Source: Desulfurococcales archaeon
GTDB taxonomy: Archaea; Thermoproteota; Thermoprotei_A; Sulfolobales; NBVN01
DNA: 37,487 nt
NCBI GenBank assembly: GCA_015521325.1
Contig: WAOK01000063.1
Coordinates: forward strand, 1-37,487
Direction of reading: 5' to 3'
The notes beneath the pieces are model-generated. The model searched no databases, had not been told where the DNA came from, and worked only from the letters and a program-made list of their open reading frames with translations. The position numbers and the translations under genes are program-made. This document shows positions 4,042 through 17,187 of this stretch, piece by piece (the stretch's first letter is position 1; every line of letters starts with the position of its first letter).

Positions 4042-5424
4042 TCAGGCCAAGCCTTTCGAGCGAAGCCACTCTACGTAGTCCTTCAGAGCGCGGAGGGTCT
4101 TCACACCCCTCTCAGGAGTCGGGAACACCGGTATGCCCTTCTTATGCATCTTCAACCTCTCAACTTCCTCCACCTCACCGCCCCCCAGATATATTGGCAC
4201 AATGACCTTACCCTTCCCGTACCATTTCTCAATGACCTCCGCAGCCCCCTCAATCGGGTCGCCGAATATCGTTATGATCGCGTCTATGTCCTCGTCTTTG
4301 AATAGTTCCTCGAACGCCGCATCGTATCTCGCGGCGTCAGCGTCGCCCGTTAGGTCGAGTGGGTTCTTTATGATGCAGTGCGAGGGTAGCTTACTCCTCA
4401 GTGCCGACGCCACGTCCTCCTTGAGCTGGTTCATCTTAAAGCCCAACATCTCCGCGTAGTCTGTTGAGACTATTCCGGAGCCGCCAGAGGACGTCACTAT
4501 CTGCACAGTCTTCACGAGCTTCCGAGGTAGCATCGAGAGTCCCTTGGCGTAGTCGTAGAGTTCCTCGAGCGAGTCAACAGGAATAGCGCCGACTTTCTTG
4601 AATGCTGCTAGGTAGACCTTATAAGAGCCAGCTAAGGAGCCGGTATGTGACGCTACTGCCTTAGCACCTGACTCCGTCCTTCCAGACTTGAACACTATGA
4701 CTGGCTTCTTTCTGCTGACCTCCTCGGCCACCTCTAAGAACCTGCGTCCGTCGCTGACGGCTTCTATGTATAGTGCCACCGCCTTCGTGTTCGGGTCCTC
4801 GCCGAGGTACTCGAGCAGGTCTATCTCGTTTATGTCTGCTTTGTTTCCGAGAGCCGCCATCTTGCTTATGCCTATGCCCTCCCTCTCAGCCCAGTACTCA
4901 AAGGTGGCGGCGAAGGTGCCTGACTGAGAGACTATCGCGAGGGGTCCTGCCGCCTTTATAAGCGGCCAAGACGCACAGAGCCCAAGGTGCGGGTTGTTAA
5001 CACCTTGGCAATTGGGTCCAAGGAACCTTATGCCGTACTTTTTCGCCACGGCCTTAAGCCTCTCCTCGAGTTCCCTGCCCTCTGGCGTGCCCAGCTCCCT
5101 GAACCCGCCCGATATTACCACAGCGGCCTTCACACCCTTTTCTCCCGCTTCTTCCATGGCGTCGGGGACGAATCTCGCGGGAATAACGAATACCGCTAGG
5201 TCAACCTCATCCGGCACCTCCTTTATGGAGGGATACGCCTTGAGCCCCAGGATCTCGCCTGCCTTAGGATTAATTGGGTAGACCTTTCCCTTAAAGCCAG
5301 CGTCTATGATATTCTTGAGTATGATATGCCCAGTCTTCTTGGGGTTTCTCGACGCGCCAATAACGGCTACTGACCTTGGTTCGAAGAGGGCCTTTATCCT
5401 CTCGTCGACCATTAGCTGCACCAT
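4042..5424 (-). CDS. Acyl-CoA synthetase (ADP/NDP-forming), alpha subunit
   Basis: This 460-residue protein is the alpha subunit type of the archaeal ADP-forming acetyl/acyl-CoA synthetase, which converts acyl-CoA, ADP and phosphate to the free acid, CoA and ATP: the energy-conserving last step of peptide and sugar fermentation. The CoA-binding Rossmann domain opens with FEPRSVAVIGAS; the ligase-CoA part has GPNCQG and SQSGTF; the motif ASHTGSLAGS near residue 257 carries the histidine that is transiently phosphorylated in this family. The beta (ATP-grasp) subunit is not in the window, so it must be encoded elsewhere. Its start is ATG 5424 (ATG 5412 possible), with a TATA box about 23 bases upstream. 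It fits functionally with the aminotransferase upstream and the H2-producing hydrogenase. Confidence 0.88.
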   Translation of the reverse strand: MVQLMVDERIKALFEPRSVAVIGASRNPKKTGHIILKNIIDAGFKGKVYPINPKAGEILGLKAYPSIKEVPDEVDLAVFVIPARFVPDAMEEAGEKGVKAAVVISGGFRELGTPEGRELEERLKAVAKKYGIRFLGPNCQGVNNPHLGLCASWPLIKAAGPLAIVSQSGTFAATFEYWAEREGIGISKMAALGNKADINEIDLLEYLGEDPNTKAVALYIEAVSDGRRFLEVAEEVSRKKPVIVFKSGRTESGAKAVASHTGSLAGSYKVYLAAFKKVGAIPVDSLEELYDYAKGLSMLPRKLVKTVQIVTSSGGSGIVSTDYAEMLGFKMNQLKEDVASALRSKLPSHCIIKNPLDLTGDADAARYDAAFEELFKDEDIDAIITIFGDPIEGAAEVIEKWYGKGKVIVPIYLGGGEVEEVERLKMHKKGIPVFPTPERGVKTLRALKDYVEWLRSKGLA

Positions 5425-5517: not shown

Positions 5518-5593
5518 GGGGGTGAAAAAGCCATGGTCCCGAGGGAAGACCCCTTTCTAGGTCTTCACCCCGGCGACCATGGCTCTCACCCCC
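5518..5593 (-). ncRNA. Candidate rod-shaped small RNA, family unknown
   Basis: The 76 bases fold into one long rod. Reading the minus strand: GGGGGTGA pairs with TCACCCCC (8 bp), GCCATGGTC with GACCATGGC (9 bp), CCGGGG with CCTCGG (6 bp), and GAAGACC with GGTCTTC (7 bp), closed by an 8-base loop (5552-5559). That is 30 pairs with only small bulges. One position in the third stem is a U-G wobble on the minus strand but an A-C mismatch on the plus strand, and the GA/UUUU internal loop can also pair only on the minus strand; both favour minus-strand transcription. A TATA box lies about 27 bases upstream, and T-rich sequence follows the 3' end. It does not match tRNA, SRP, RNase P or a clear H/ACA layout. 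There is no ORF. Confidence 0.55.
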
Positions 5594-7099: not shown

Positions 7100-7552
7100 C
7101 TACCTAATCCTTGCTATAACACGTACCCTACAGGAAGCTGGAGGCGGTGTTGTGCACTTTATAGGGTCTGAGTGAGGACATCTCTCGGGTTTTCCCATGC
7201 CCTCCCAGATCTTTAGGGCCTTATCCATGGGTATGAGTACCTCTATCTCCCTGGCCAGTCTGCATGCCTCATCTGGGTCGAGGCCGAGCCTGCTGAGGGC
7301 TGTCTCTATTATTGTGTGTTTAATAAACATGTCTGTGCATATTGAGAGCCCCTCTTTCGTTAAGGTATAGCCGCCGTTGACCCTTCTCAAGAGTCCGAAC
7401 CTCATCAGCTTCTTCAGCATAAGGGAAGCCGTTGGCTTAGCTACGCCCAGGTACCTGGCGACGTCGCTTATCCTCGCCGTCCCTCTTACGTGGCTGAGGT
7501 GGTACACAACCATTAAGTAGTCGATGTCCCTCGGGCTGAAGAGGCTAGGCAC
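7100..7552 (-). CDS. DtxR/MntR-family metal-dependent regulator
   Basis: This 150-residue protein has an N-terminal winged helix (ARISDVARYLGVAKPTASLM, about residues 25-44) followed by the helical metal-binding/dimerisation domain typical of DtxR/MntR/IdeR regulators. The segment RCPHSDPI near the C terminus corresponds to the CPHG-type metal-ligand stretch of the family; the C-terminal SH3-like domain of DtxR is absent, as in MntR. The GTG start overlaps the permease stop by 8 bases, so it is the last gene of the metal ABC transporter operon and probably represses that operon when Mn, Fe or Zn is plentiful. The metal is not decided by sequence. Confidence 0.85.
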   Translation of the reverse strand: MPSLFSPRDIDYLMVVYHLSHVRGTARISDVARYLGVAKPTASLMLKKLMRFGLLRRVNGGYTLTKEGLSICTDMFIKHTIIETALSRLGLDPDEACRLAREIEVLIPMDKALKIWEGMGKPERCPHSDPIKCTTPPPASCRVRVIARIR

Positions 7553-8357
7553 GCCTCATCACCGCCATCACACCAGCCGATATGGCAACTGAGAGAGCCC
7601 CCACACCCGCGGAGGGGGGTAGGTTAGCGACATAAGCAATGCTGTACCCTCCGAGGAACATCAGCAGCGATACAGTGTATGATGTAAGGAACATCTTCCT
7701 CGCCTTCATGGACGCGACGAGGCCCGGTGTCGATATCGCCACATGCGCTATGAGAACGCCAAGACTCATCGAGAGCGCTCCGGACGCTATGGCTATTAGG
7801 CTGTAGAAGAGGTAGCGGTACACCCTCACCCTCACACCCATGACCTCTGCCCCTTCAGGATCGAATGAGACGTACTTGTGCTCATACCAGAGCAGGTGCG
7901 TCAACGGCGCTATGATCGCGAATGCCCCACCTAGTCTGATGGCGTCGCCCACAGTAGCTATTGCTGAGGTACCGAAGACATAGCTCATCGCCTTAGCCAT
8001 CCCGGTCGGTGTGGAAACACTGACAACATATGTGAGGACTATGGTGACCGTCGTCGAGAACGCTACGCTGAGAGCAACAGCCACATCCTCCGGGAACCCC
8101 CTCGTCACAGCCTCTGCGGTGAGTATCGAAGCTGCTATAGCGAATGCTACGGCCGTGAAGACTGGGGGCACGGGTACCCCGGCTACGTCCTCTAGGTACA
8201 CACCTATGAGAGCACCTGCAAGAAGTGAGTGGAGGAGGGTTAGTGCGAAGGTGACTGATCTGGAGATGACTAGGGAGGGGCTCACGCCCCCTACAAGGAG
8301 CCCGGCGAGGGCGGCGACCCCATAAAGCATTAAGGTTACCTGGTCAGTGGGGAGCAT
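7545..8357 (-). CDS. Metal ABC transporter permease (ZnuB/MntB type)
   Basis: An integral membrane protein of about 270 residues with roughly eight hydrophobic helices, belonging to the ABC-3 permease family that imports Zn, Mn or Fe with TroA-type binding proteins. The cytoplasmic loop around KYVSFDPEGAEVMGV is the conserved coupling region that contacts the ATPase. It overlaps the ATPase gene upstream and the regulator downstream. ATG 8357 follows GGTGA at five bases and is preferred; GTG 8366 is the other option. Normal length, nothing missing. Confidence 0.88.
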   Translation of the reverse strand: MLPTDQVTLMLYGVAALAGLLVGGVSPSLVISRSVTFALTLLHSLLAGALIGVYLEDVAGVPVPPVFTAVAFAIAASILTAEAVTRGFPEDVAVALSVAFSTTVTIVLTYVVSVSTPTGMAKAMSYVFGTSAIATVGDAIRLGGAFAIIAPLTHLLWYEHKYVSFDPEGAEVMGVRVRVYRYLFYSLIAIASGALSMSLGVLIAHVAISTPGLVASMKARKMFLTSYTVSLLMFLGGYSIAYVANLPPSAGVGALSVAISAGVMAVMRRA

Positions 8358-9117
8358 GGTCCTCACCCAGTATGATCATTCCTTCAACCTCAGTCACGTC
8401 TGGGTAGGCCTTCCTCAGTATCTCGGGCCTGAGTACGTCCCTTATCTTGCCGACGGCGAACACCTTCCTGTTTATGAGTATGACCACGGGGTCTATCAAA
8501 GCACATGGCGAGACGTCGTGGGCTGACATGATTATGTCTGTCCCGAGCTCCTCATGTATCCTCTTGAGCGTGTTCACTATCTCGCACTTCGACTTGAAGT
8601 CAAGCATTGAGTAAGGCTCATCGAGCACAAGGAGCCTCGGCTTCCTCAGCAGCGCCCTAGCTATCAACACCCTCTGCTGCTGCCCACCGCTGAGTTCTGA
8701 GAATAACCTGTTCTCGAGTCCCTCGAGACCTACGAGCGAGAGGGCCTTCCTAACCGCCTCCCCCACCTCCCTCGTTATCAGTCTTGGTGGGGGCAGCTTC
8801 GAGAGGAGGCCCATCGCGACAACTTCCTCCACTGTTATTGGGACGTTCCTAGAGACGTTCAGTATCTGCGGTACGTAACCCACCAAGCCCCTAACCCTCG
8901 CCCTGTCCTCGTAGGGGTCCATGCCGTAGATGCTGAGCCTTCCCCTGATCGGACGAAGGATCCCGACTATCGCCCTTATGAGGGTCGTCTTCCCCGCGCC
9001 GTTGGGGCCCATGAGGAGGGCTATGAACGGAGACCTCAGCTCGAACGTCACGTCCTCAAGGACCACCCGGCTCCCATAAGCCAGCGTGACTGACTCTGCC
9101 CGCACAGTGTCATTCAT
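8344..9117 (-). CDS. Metal ABC transporter ATP-binding protein (ZnuC/MntA type)
   Basis: This 257-residue ABC ATPase has Walker A GPNGAGKTT (about residue 37), the Q-loop region VGYVPQ, signature LSGGQQQR, Walker B LLVLDEPYSMLD and the switch histidine in SAHDVS. It powers the permease encoded next to it. Its ATG start overlaps the stop of the binding-protein gene (ATGAATGA), indicating coupled translation. In the Walker B segment DEPYSMLD replaces the more usual DEPTxGLD; the catalytic glutamate is present, so activity should be kept. The operon order is binding protein, ATPase, permease, regulator. Confidence 0.9.
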   Translation of the reverse strand: MNDTVRAESVTLAYGSRVVLEDVTFELRSPFIALLMGPNGAGKTTLIRAIVGILRPIRGRLSIYGMDPYEDRARVRGLVGYVPQILNVSRNVPITVEEVVAMGLLSKLPPPRLITREVGEAVRKALSLVGLEGLENRLFSELSGGQQQRVLIARALLRKPRLLVLDEPYSMLDFKSKCEIVNTLKRIHEELGTDIIMSAHDVSPCALIDPVVILINRKVFAVGKIRDVLRPEILRKAYPDVTEVEGMIILGEDHAPH

Positions 9118-10129
9118 GCCCTATCACCGCCCTTGCTAGGCTCCTCCTACAAAGATAGAGGAAGTACGCCAGGATCACTATCACGAGTGCCTCGCCGAAG
9201 GCAGTCGCTATGACCATCAGGTAAGCCGGGGAGGAGGCCCCTGGTCTGCCCACAGACTCCGCCGCAGTCACTAGGGCAACGGGGATAAGGTGAGGAGACG
9301 CCTTTAGGGTAGAGAGGGGTATGACCACCACGGGTATGCCAGCAGCTTTTAGTGCGTCAACTACTTTACCGAGCCTCGACGCCTCCATGTCCGTCGTTAC
9401 GACAACGCCGTAGAGGCCCTCACGCCACTTGCTGATGAAGTCATTGATTTGCTGCTGTGAGGCCTCAACACCGAGTTCGGGGAGCATCACCGCCCCCACA
9501 CCTATGCCTGCGTCCGCCGCAGCATACTGAAGGATAGGTGTCAACAACCCTATGCGGGGTGCTGAGGAACTCATCTCCTGCGCCACGGACTCCTCCCTAG
9601 CAAGCATATCGATGAATGACTCCGCCCTCTCTTGGAAATAATTCCTTAGCTCTGGTCTCTCGGCTACTAGTGCCTTAGCCAGTGCCTTAGCTATTGCCTT
9701 AAGGCCGGTGTAGCTGAAGATGTAGCCGTGCGGGTTTGGCTTACCTGTTATTGGGTTGTTGAGTAGTGTCATGCCCTCCGCCTCGTAGTCTGTGTAGTCT
9801 ATTATCCTGACGCTGATCATGCCTTGCTCTTCTAGCTCCCGTATCTTTTCTTCAATCACTAGGTGGGACGGCCCGGTCATTACGACGAGGTCTGCCTGCG
9901 AGAGCTTACCCAGTAACTCGTTGAGAGGTGGGTCGTAGGTATGTGGGTCTGCTCCCGGAGGCACCAGCTCAAGCACCTCCACGTACTGTCCGCCGATGCA
10001 CTCCACTACCTCGGTCAGGGAGGGCGCTGTCACAGCAACGACCACATGCTCCTGTTGCTGAGCGATTGGGGTGATCGCTGATGCAAGCATAATCACCATT
10101 AGCGTTACCAGGGCGGCTGATGTTCGCAT
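9110..10129 (-). CDS. TroA-type metal-binding protein of the ABC transporter, membrane-anchored
   Basis: This 339-residue extracellular protein has an N-terminal hydrophobic signal segment (residues about 5-24). The cluster A-1 fold shows metal-ligand motifs GADPHTYDPP near residue 60 and PNPHGYIFS near residue 131, with acidic candidates in TTDMEA later. A C-terminal hydrophobic helix, VIATAFGEALVIVILAYFLY, followed by the positive tail CRRSLAR would hold it to the outside of the cell membrane, replacing the lipid anchor of bacterial homologues. The ATG has an AGGTGA site. It is the first gene of the four-gene metal operon, and a dyad lies on its promoter. Zn or Mn is the likely cargo. Confidence 0.88.
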   Translation of the reverse strand: MRTSAALVTLMVIMLASAITPIAQQQEHVVVAVTAPSLTEVVECIGGQYVEVLELVPPGADPHTYDPPLNELLGKLSQADLVVMTGPSHLVIEEKIRELEEQGMISVRIIDYTDYEAEGMTLLNNPITGKPNPHGYIFSYTGLKAIAKALAKALVAERPELRNYFQERAESFIDMLAREESVAQEMSSSAPRIGLLTPILQYAAADAGIGVGAVMLPELGVEASQQQINDFISKWREGLYGVVVTTDMEASRLGKVVDALKAAGIPVVVIPLSTLKASPHLIPVALVTAAESVGRPGASSPAYLMVIATAFGEALVIVILAYFLYLCRRSLARAVIGHE

Positions 10130-12075: not shown

Positions 12076-12109
12076 ATTTCATGTTTAGAATTCACGCTTG
12101 TTCGGGAAT

Positions 12110-12208
12110 TGGTGGGGCCGCGGGGATTTGAACCCCGGGCCACGGGGGTTCCCGCCGCTTTTGTGCGGACCCAAGCCCCGCATCCTGACCAAGCTAGACG
12201 ACGGCCCC
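12110..12208 (-). tRNA. tRNA-Pro (anticodon UGG) with an intron and an encoded CCA end
   Basis: On the minus strand: acceptor GGGGCCG/CGGCCCC, a D arm with GTCT/GGAT stem, anticodon stem CGGGG/CCCCG, loop CTTGGG-C with anticodon TGG, a five-base variable loop and T arm CGGGG-TTCAAAT-CCCCG; discriminator A and CCA are encoded (12110-12113). A 21-base intron follows position 37 and holds a small CCGC/GCGG hairpin, as expected for the bulge-helix-bulge site cut by the archaeal splicing endonuclease. Without intron and CCA the length is 75 bases. A TATA box lies 25 bases upstream. The open reading frame running through this stretch on the plus strand is not coding. Confidence 0.93.
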
Positions 12209-12230
12209 ACCGTTGGTGTTTCTGTGTCTG

Positions 12231-12239
12231 TGCCTTATT
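12231..12239 (-). promoter_or_regulatory. TATA box of the tRNA-Pro gene
   Basis: The minus strand reads AAAATAAGG, centred about 26 bases before the tRNA 5' end at 12208. On the opposite strand a second T-rich element, GTTTTTAG (12254-12261), is the likely promoter of the MoxR gene, so the two genes are transcribed divergently from a gap of about 80 bases. Confidence 0.5.
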
Positions 12240-12292
12240 TTCGTTTTGTGCCCGTTTTTAGTTTCGTTAGCATGATCTGGCTGGGGTTGGGT

Positions 12293-13441
12293 GTGGATAA
12301 GATCCAGGTGTTCCTTAGGGAGTTGCAGAGGCCGTTCGTGGGTAGGGAGGAGGAGGCTAGGCTGGTAGTGCTGACCCTGCTCGCGAGGGAGCACGCTGTG
12401 CTGATCGGTGAGCCTGGTGTGGCTAAGTCAGCGATTGTTAGGAGGGCTGCTGACCTCCTTAATGCGAGGTTCTTTAAGTATCTCCTCACCCGCTTCACTG
12501 AGCCGGCCGAGCTTTTTGGGCCCCTCGACATCAAGGCCCTCGAGGACGGCAGGTACGTGAGGTTAACGAGAGGGAAGCTTCCGGAGGCTGATATCGCTTT
12601 CCTTGACGAGGTCTTCAAGGCTAACTCGGCGATACTGAACGCCCTTAACTCGATACTGCAGGAGAGGATCGTCTATGACGGCTACAGTGAGATAAGGACG
12701 CCGCTATGGTCCCTCTTCGGGGCGAGTAATGAGGTCCCGGACGAGCCAGAGGTGGAGGCCTTCTACGACAGGTTCCTCGTAAGGCACTTCGTCAGGCCCC
12801 TCCCCGAGGACATGTGGGGCGACCTTCTCGACAGGGCCTGGGAACTCGAGAGGGCTATGTACTTCGGTGACTTCGACGGGAAGCCAGTGATGAGCATCAC
12901 CGACCTCAAGACGTATCACGAGAGAGTTCTGAACGTGAGATTCGATGCGGTGAAGCAGAAACTCGTTAAGGTATTCGCTGTGCTAGAGAGCAGGGGGATA
13001 CACCTAAGCGACAGGAGGAAGGGAAAGGCCCTCAAGCTCATAGCAGCTAATGCCGTACTCGAGGGGAGGGACGAGGTGATTGAGAAGGACCTCCTCGTAC
13101 TGAAGTACGTTGCCGCTAAAGACTGGGACGAGCTCGAGAAGGTGAACGCCGTGCTAGCTGACGAGCTGAAAACCCCGTACAAGTACCTGAGGGAGCTAGA
13201 AGAGATCAAAATAAACGTTAGGGAGACGAAGAACTACGTCATATCCCTCGAGCACATAGAGTCGAGGTACATTGACCTGAGGTTCAAGCAGATGCTAAGG
13301 GACCTCGAGATAACCAAGGATCGGGTGATAGCGATGATGCTTGAGTCCGGCGACCCGAACGTGGAGAGGGCGGCGAATGAGGTCATCGAGCTGATAGAGG
13401 AGACCGCCGAGAGAATAAGGAGGAGACTCAGGGGTGAGTGA
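12293..13441 (+). CDS. MoxR-type AAA+ ATPase
   Basis: An AAA+ ATPase of about 382 residues in the MoxR/RavA group. Walker A is GEPGVAKSA (near residue 37), Walker B with the extra glutamate is IAFLDEVFKAN, and FGASNEVP is sensor 1. The C-terminal third is helical and charged. MoxR proteins act as chaperones that insert cofactors or remodel complexes together with a VWA-domain partner, and here the partner gene follows directly. GTG 12293 is taken as start because TTTTTA at 12255-12260 gives a start of transcription near 12284; TTG 12287 and ATG 12272 are alternatives. Any start before 12209 would lie inside the tRNA gene. The stop TGA abuts the GTG of the next gene. Confidence 0.85.
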   Translation: MDKIQVFLRELQRPFVGREEEARLVVLTLLAREHAVLIGEPGVAKSAIVRRAADLLNARFFKYLLTRFTEPAELFGPLDIKALEDGRYVRLTRGKLPEADIAFLDEVFKANSAILNALNSILQERIVYDGYSEIRTPLWSLFGASNEVPDEPEVEAFYDRFLVRHFVRPLPEDMWGDLLDRAWELERAMYFGDFDGKPVMSITDLKTYHERVLNVRFDAVKQKLVKVFAVLESRGIHLSDRRKGKALKLIAANAVLEGRDEVIEKDLLVLKYVAAKDWDELEKVNAVLADELKTPYKYLRELEEIKINVRETKNYVISLEHIESRYIDLRFKQMLRDLEITKDRVIAMMLESGDPNVERAANEVIELIEETAERIRRRLRGE

Positions 13442-15979: not shown

Positions 15980-16092
15980 TGGCGCCGGGGGCGGGATTTG
16001 AACCCGCGCGGGGGTTCCCCCACCGGCTCACCGCGCCGGGTGGGGTACCTGGCTTAGCAGGCCGGCGCCCTACCAGGCTAGGCGACCCCGGC
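15980..16092 (-). tRNA. tRNA-Ser (anticodon GCU) with an intron and an encoded CCA end
   Basis: Minus strand: acceptor GCCGGGG/CCCCGGC, D stem GCCT/GGGC, anticodon stem CCGGC/GCCGG, loop CTGCTAA with anticodon GCT, a 15-base long variable arm (GGGG/CCCC stem), T arm GCGGG-TTCAAAT-CCCGC, discriminator G and encoded CCA (15980-15982). Without an intron the anticodon stem would have a C-A mismatch; removing 26 bases after position 37 restores five perfect pairs, which locates the intron. Mature length without CCA is 84 bases, normal for a class II tRNA. The C/D box sRNA begins about 24 bases downstream on the same strand. Confidence 0.93.
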
Positions 16093-16373: not shown

Positions 16374-17187
16374 CTCTCAAGGATGCCACGTACGCTGCCT
16401 CCTTCATTCTTTCCTGGATCAGTGCCATGAGCTTGCTCTGATCGACACCCATGATACCCTCATCAACTATCACGTAGGGCACCCACTGAGGGTTCGTCAT
16501 AGTGCCCCTCATCTTCCTCACCATCAGCTCCTTCAGCGGTATCCCTATCTCCAAGAGGGTCGGGTTAAGCCTCGTCTCGATGAACCCGTCCACGAGATAC
16601 TCGAGATGGGCGGCGAGCTCCTCGAGCAGCTCGGTCGCTGTGTGGAGGACCGTGACCACCATTATGCCGAGGCCCTTAGCGAAGACTGCCCTGATCGTCT
16701 TGACGAACTCTAGAACCTGGGATATGTCCATGGAGAACATCAGCTCGTTGAGGGAGTCAACCACTATCAGTCCCTCGCCCTGCATAGAGTACCTTTTAGC
16801 GGCTATGTCATAAAGCCCATATATTATCCCGTCCTTGTCGGAGGGAGTAACCCTCCTGACCACGTACTCGTCCCCTATGTCAGCTGAGAGATCACCAAGT
16901 CTGAAGCTGAAGCCGTCGACTATTGAGAAGAGCCCCTTGCTGAACAAGGTGTCTATGTTCCAGCGGAAGGAGCGGAAGTGCTCTACGAGTGATTTGGGGT
17001 CGTCGTCGAATGTGAGGTATATGACCTTCTCCCCTGACTCCATGAAGAACTTGCTGAGGTGCGCCGCCAGCACGGTCTTCCCCGTGCCGGCGGGGCCGGC
17101 GAGGACTATCAGGGAGCGCCTGGGTATGCCCCAGGGAAGAGCGACCTGGAGAGGCACTATCGAGGGTCTCACAAGCCCTGATGGCAT
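16336..17187 (-). CDS. KaiC/RadA-like (RecA-superfamily) ATPase
   Basis: A protein of about 283 residues with a single RecA-type domain of the KaiC/GvpD group. Walker A is GPAGTGKT (about residue 32), strand YLTFDDDP follows, and Walker B is LIVVDSLNEL. The C-terminal part after the ATPase core has basic GTMTNPQWVPYV, like the KaiC motif region that ends in a conserved proline-rich segment. Archaeal members of this group are signal-transduction ATPases, some controlling motility or transcription; no partner domain is fused here. It is followed, with overlap, by a ferredoxin, which hints at a redox-linked role, an inference only. Start ATG 17187 or GTG 17190. Confidence 0.75.
   Translation of the reverse strand: MPSGLVRPSIVPLQVALPWGIPRRSLIVLAGPAGTGKTVLAAHLSKFFMESGEKVIYLTFDDDPKSLVEHFRSFRWNIDTLFSKGLFSIVDGFSFRLGDLSADIGDEYVVRRVTPSDKDGIIYGLYDIAAKRYSMQGEGLIVVDSLNELMFSMDISQVLEFVKTIRAVFAKGLGIMVVTVLHTATELLEELAAHLEYLVDGFIETRLNPTLLEIGIPLKELMVRKMRGTMTNPQWVPYVIVDEGIMGVDQSKLMALIQERMKEAAYVASLRGVGGVGQDKGKG

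Follow-up and report, generated by a model that had tools for sequence, protein, structure and literature searches.

The stretch of DNA analysed here, called the window, is 37,487 nucleotides long and comes from a Desulfurococcales archaeon. Between an aminotransferase gene and an acyl-CoA ligase gene it carries a 76-base element with a TATA-like box in front of it, all on the minus strand (Table 1). The sequence-only reading had claimed a rod-shaped RNA here, and the fold and the shuffled controls confirm it: read on the minus strand, the 76 bases form a rod of 33 base pairs with an energy of -61.6 kcal/mol (z -9.6), which none of 200 shuffled sequences equalled. This is the most stable of the 9,353 stretches of 76 nt in the 37.5 kb (mean -20.4, sd 5.1). 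The thirty pairs in four stems described earlier stand as far as the extensive pairing is concerned, but the rod is a single long helix with small bulges and not four stems. The same bases on the plus strand give -54.7 kcal/mol (z -8.6), and the covariance model described below, derived from the minus strand, scores 96 bits on that strand and 38 bits on the other. The lower energy, the higher score and the TATA-like stretch upstream all agree with the preference for the minus strand expressed before.

Table 1. Features at the rod locus, numbered from the first base of the window.
Feature	Position	Strand	Remarks
ADP-forming acyl-CoA ligase, alpha-type subunit	4042..5424	-	neighbouring gene; own TTTATA at 5449-5444
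Rod-shaped hairpin RNA, predicted transcript core	5518..5593	-	5' end near 5593; from fold, homologues and covariation
Invariant 3' arm CCATGGCTTTTTCACC	5521..5536	-	pairs with the SD-like sequence and the start codon; two-U bulge
Micro-ORF ATG GTC GCC GGG GTG AAG ACC TAG (MVAGVKT*), putative	5557..5580	-	from six-genome comparison
Shine-Dalgarno-like GGGGGTGA	5586..5593	-	in 5' arm, 5 nt ahead of ATG; GGTGA part invariant in six genomes
TATA-box-like AAAATTTTTAA	5616..5626	-	~22 nt upstream of the rod (about -33 to -23)
Class-III aminotransferase, acetylornithine aminotransferase family, NF004426	5671..7029	-	neighbouring gene

In every one of the six genomes in which the rod is clearly present, the minus strand has the TATA-like box 22–24 nt ahead of the rod, and this near-constant spacing bears out the earlier claim of a TATA box at the right distance. 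What the six copies have in common is the rod and this short promoter stretch. The ligase gene has its own TTTATA about 20–25 nt ahead of its ATG, which suggests that its mRNA is leaderless, and it is thus plausible that the rod lies outside the leader of the downstream gene, as had been proposed.

Elsewhere in the window, the genes at 7100-10129 (-) encode a DtxR-type iron-dependent repressor, an ABC-3 metal permease, an apparent ATPase and an apparent binding protein, and are likely to be a metal-uptake operon. A tRNA-Pro at 12110-12208 (-) was found by ARAGORN and is absent from the Rfam listing. The listed start of the ORF at 12098-13441 (+) overlaps this tRNA on the opposite strand, so the true start is probably further in; its first residues, GRGDLNPGPRGF, resemble an antisense-translated tRNA. 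The second-best fold of the window, at ~17037-17140 (-41.8 kcal/mol), has ORFs on both strands.

Among the 4227 Rfam models no family reaches its gathering score at the rod, the best being MIR9672 with 28.9 bits where 74 are required, which is in line with the claim that the RNA belongs to no known family. Over the whole window only a tRNA at 15983-16092 (-) scores above the gathering threshold; it was missed by ARAGORN and, being 110 nt long, it probably contains an intron.

Homologues were sought by similarity search in 41 genomes and then with a covariance model built from six sequences, a structure-model search of related genomes that had been suggested beforehand. The rod gene was found in six genomes of one family of heat-loving archaea (E 1e-22 to 3e-19), namely the two of genus g1 and two each of g8 and g9. 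A seventh, weak match (E 0.01) is a divergent sequence, L069, in the 59% complete genome G018. It directly adjoins a radical-SAM gene which shares 63–64% identity with a gene close to the RNA in g9, and for this reason we take it as a true, divergent copy, as judged from its sequence and position. The presence is patchy, 6–7 of the 31 genomes of the family. Covariance searches across the order (214 genomes) and the class (229 genomes), run with stricter filters by which weak matches are lost, gave no further convincing match, and the rod was not found in the other ~207 genomes of the order. One match outside the family, L071, looks like a normal mRNA start and was rejected as a homologue.

The surroundings of the rod differ between genera. 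In g1 its neighbours are the aminotransferase and the acyl-CoA ligase, and an orthologue scan using the ligase found only one near relative; in g8 and g9 they are MFS transporters, a class-II (ThrRS-type) tRNA synthetase, and a PAP2 protein or a MinD-like ATPase. In the window the rod lies 78 nt past the aminotransferase stop on the same strand, as would suit a transcription terminator or 3'-end hairpin of that mRNA. However, the rod lies between two gene starts at L072 and L073 and is antisense to the flanking genes at L074, so a terminator does not fit, and with the promoter-like box accompanying the rod in all six genomes we consider it very improbable. A cis attenuator with a leader peptide was also rejected; a same-strand downstream gene is found in the window, at L072 and at L073, whereas L074 and L075 lack one and the following gene is convergent.

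The patchy presence and the changing neighbourhoods could also point to a mobile or selfish DNA element, either an inverted repeat of the MITE type or one derived from a virus. There is even an empty site: in the sister genome G009 (L117, G009:C132, ~2760-2830) the MFS and ThrRS-type synthetase genes are ~60 bases apart without the RNA, and in G016 the RNA sits between their orthologues. Against this, each carrier has one copy, no further copies were found in the host genome, and the several copies per genome that would mark a mobile inverted repeat are not seen. The promoter belongs to the unit, and the changes between copies, described below, are compensatory and concentrated in third codon positions. 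No match with both arms was found in viral, phage and plasmid collections. A 16-mer is contained in 27 viral contigs and an 18-mer in one, and a covariance scan of 14 of the 27 and of the contig with the 18-mer reached 14.4 bits at best (E 0.48), which is not convincing. Single copies and a kept promoter speak against a mobile repeat, and a mobile origin of any kind appears improbable to us. The earlier statement that the rod is hard to explain as a terminator or chance repeat agrees with its genomic context, its single copies and its kept promoter.

The structure of the rod is, judging by the comparison of the copies, under selection. Six of the 31 consensus pairs have changed on both sides, where shuffled alignments gave a mean of 2.5 and only 3 of 500 were as high, and the covariation was 0.222 as compared to 0.146 in the shuffles (0 of 500). 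Controls in which the partners were slid by one to three columns gave at most two double-changed pairs and a covariation of at most 0.090. Between G000 and G001, of the same genus, the rod is identical in 75 of 76 positions, the sole difference being a loop base, whereas only 31 of 45 upstream columns are identical in the promoter-proximal flank. No variation is seen among the six genomes in the outer stem and its UU bulge, and the rods of the relatives are also very stable. The compensatory changes are what a covariation analysis had been expected to look for, and the stems, whose loss in close relatives had been named as counting against the RNA, are kept. Together with the TATA-like box in the relatives, the conserved stems support a separate, promoter-driven RNA gene. 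At the level of genome comparison the gene unit, its strand, the position of its promoter and the kept pairing are demonstrated, and we regard it as highly probable that this is a real, new and narrowly distributed archaeal RNA gene, whose transcript is predicted.

The 5' arm of the rod contains a feature which the sequence-only reading had missed and which is recognised here for the first time. It reads, in order, a Shine-Dalgarno (SD)-like GGGGGUGA, a 5-nt spacer, an AUG, the codons of MVAGVK(T/I/V) and a stop. The SD-like sequence fits the general archaeal anti-SD, UCACCUCC, which is used here because the host assembly yielded no 16S rRNA at the threshold applied. Seven residues is about the shortest product that known genes encode. 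The peptide variants among the six genomes are MVAGVKT, MVAGVKI, MVAGVKV and MVAGVKIR, and among the 31 genomes of the family the pattern ATGGTNGCNGGNGTNAAR is confined to the six carriers, with a single occurrence in each. In the divergent copy the ATG of the micro-ORF is changed to ATA and the frame needs an upstream ATG instead; it then reads ATG CGG GCG AGA GCT ATA GTT AGA GAG GTT AAA ATC CAA TGA in the same frame.

The differences between the copies follow the codons. In codons 2–6 every variable column is a third position, with 0, 0 and 24 differences at the three codon positions (p 0.004; 0.012 for any frame). The first two positions of codon 7 are variable, and with this codon included the numbers are 4, 6 and 24, that is 24 of 34 in third positions (p 0.02). 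With the divergent copy added and a wider stretch taken, 54 of 82 differences are at third positions (p 0.002; any frame 0.008), and in the comparison of this copy with L004 it is 6 of 9 (p 0.013). The opposite, 3' arm shows no such periodicity (30/30/22), and 14 of its 17 columns are variable as compared to 6 of 17 in the 5' arm. A synonymous change compensated by the pairing was also observed, codon 2 going from GTC to GTG together with G to C in the opposite arm. Depending on the stretch and set taken, the tests of synonymous bias gave p 0.002–0.025 with few sequences. We call the coding signal moderate because the test loses strength through codon 7 and the choice of stretch and because only five distinct sequences and one divergent one are compared; the outer arms, being invariant, carry no codon information. 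This pattern gives moderate support to selection on the frame and to a putative translation of the micro-ORF, and on balance it is probable that the 5' arm is, or was, a selected micro-ORF.

The main rival is a structural, non-coding rod that binds a protein, for instance through the outer stem with the UU bulge, with the frame arising as a side effect of constraints on the 5' arm sequence. It stays the main rival because this stem, invariant in the six genomes, tells nothing about coding; the strong covariation and the stability of the relatives' rods would suit it too. It does not predict variation restricted to third positions in codons 2–6 and absent from the opposite arm, nor an SD-like sequence at a good spacing from an AUG, and we regard it as rather unlikely. 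The protein-binding decoy suggested earlier thus survives as a non-coding rival, but the SD-like sequence and the conserved micro-ORF in the 5' arm make another reading more economical than a purely non-coding decoy.

It is also conceivable that the RNA acts in trans, its 3' arm CCAUGGCUUUUUCACC blocking the translation starts of other mRNAs. This arm is complementary to an ideal SD-spacer-AUG sequence, and the divergent copy keeps a similar arm, CCAUGGUUCUCACCC. The target sequence with at most 3 mismatches is nevertheless about as frequent in the host as a reversed control, and the sole host match below 3 mismatches is the rod element itself. Longer similarities in the host are weak, and the best, at G000:C93, was rejected as a possible target because it lies inside the coding frame of LeuRS. 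With no target beyond chance in the host genomes, the antisense regulator that had been suggested finds little favour, and we think it improbable.

The reading we tentatively prefer, at somewhat short of even chances, is that the minus strand carries a stand-alone RNA gene specific to this lineage, with a ~76-nt transcript that acts as a self-sequestering micro-mRNA. Its 5' arm, with the SD-like sequence, the AUG, the seven-codon frame and the stop near the loop, would leave the polymerase first, and could be read co-transcriptionally by a ribosome loading on the nascent arm. The 3' arm, made last, would then pair with the whole SD-AUG-frame stretch and exclude the ribosome, leaving a silent, heat-stable rod. 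Each transcript would be read only briefly, because the completed 3' arm closes this stretch. Folding of prefixes of the window's RNA at 80 °C gave an AUG that is 0.69–0.97 unpaired at the tested lengths up to 56 nt, closed from ~62 nt, and ~0.01 unpaired when the RNA is complete, the SD-like part closing last; these values are indicative only, as the RNA energy parameters are extrapolated to 80 °C. The modelled folds suggest a time window for ribosome loading on the nascent RNA. The use of the RNA by ribosomes, the importance of the peptide or of the act of translating it, and the cycle of opening and closing are what we infer.

A separate gene for a heptapeptide, associated with a hairpin, is known in mccA of microcin C. 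The rod gene resembles it in the seven residues and the hairpin, but here the hairpin includes the frame and the last residue of the peptide is not conserved; no MccB/ThiF-type adenylating enzyme was recognised among the subset of rod neighbours profiled with Pfam. In Sinorhizobium meliloti, rnTrpL is a small, liberated attenuator RNA whose very short frame gives the leader peptide peTrpL, and the RNA and the peptide are both of importance (PMC7298713). In contrast to rnTrpL, the rod is archaeal, has no cis target gene in several genomes, and holds its frame wholly within one rod. mRNAs with sequestered ribosome-binding sites or uORFs, for example in Salmonella (PMC8092293), are similar in that SD and start codon are paired by other parts of the transcript; the rod differs in having no main ORF behind it in several genomes and in that the whole transcript is a hairpin. 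Autonomous, structured RNA genes in the intergenic regions of a hyperthermophile are represented by small non-coding RNAs from a Pyrococcus abyssi screen (PMC3124441), from which the rod is set apart by the lack of an Rfam match and by its conserved micro-ORF.

A more general possibility, which we hold to be doubtful, is a class of archaeal genes whose rod RNA unites a heptapeptide message, as one arm, with the silencer of that message, as the other; the arms would co-evolve, synonymous changes on one side being mirrored on the other, and would serve as a built-in, short-lived translation switch. If the gene is translated, few known separate protein-coding genes would be as small, and it would be, to our knowledge, the first of this build in archaea and would offer a simple system for co-transcriptional translation at high temperature. 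If untranslated, it would still represent a new RNA family of archaea, for which promoter, strand, covariance model and phylogenetic range are defined.
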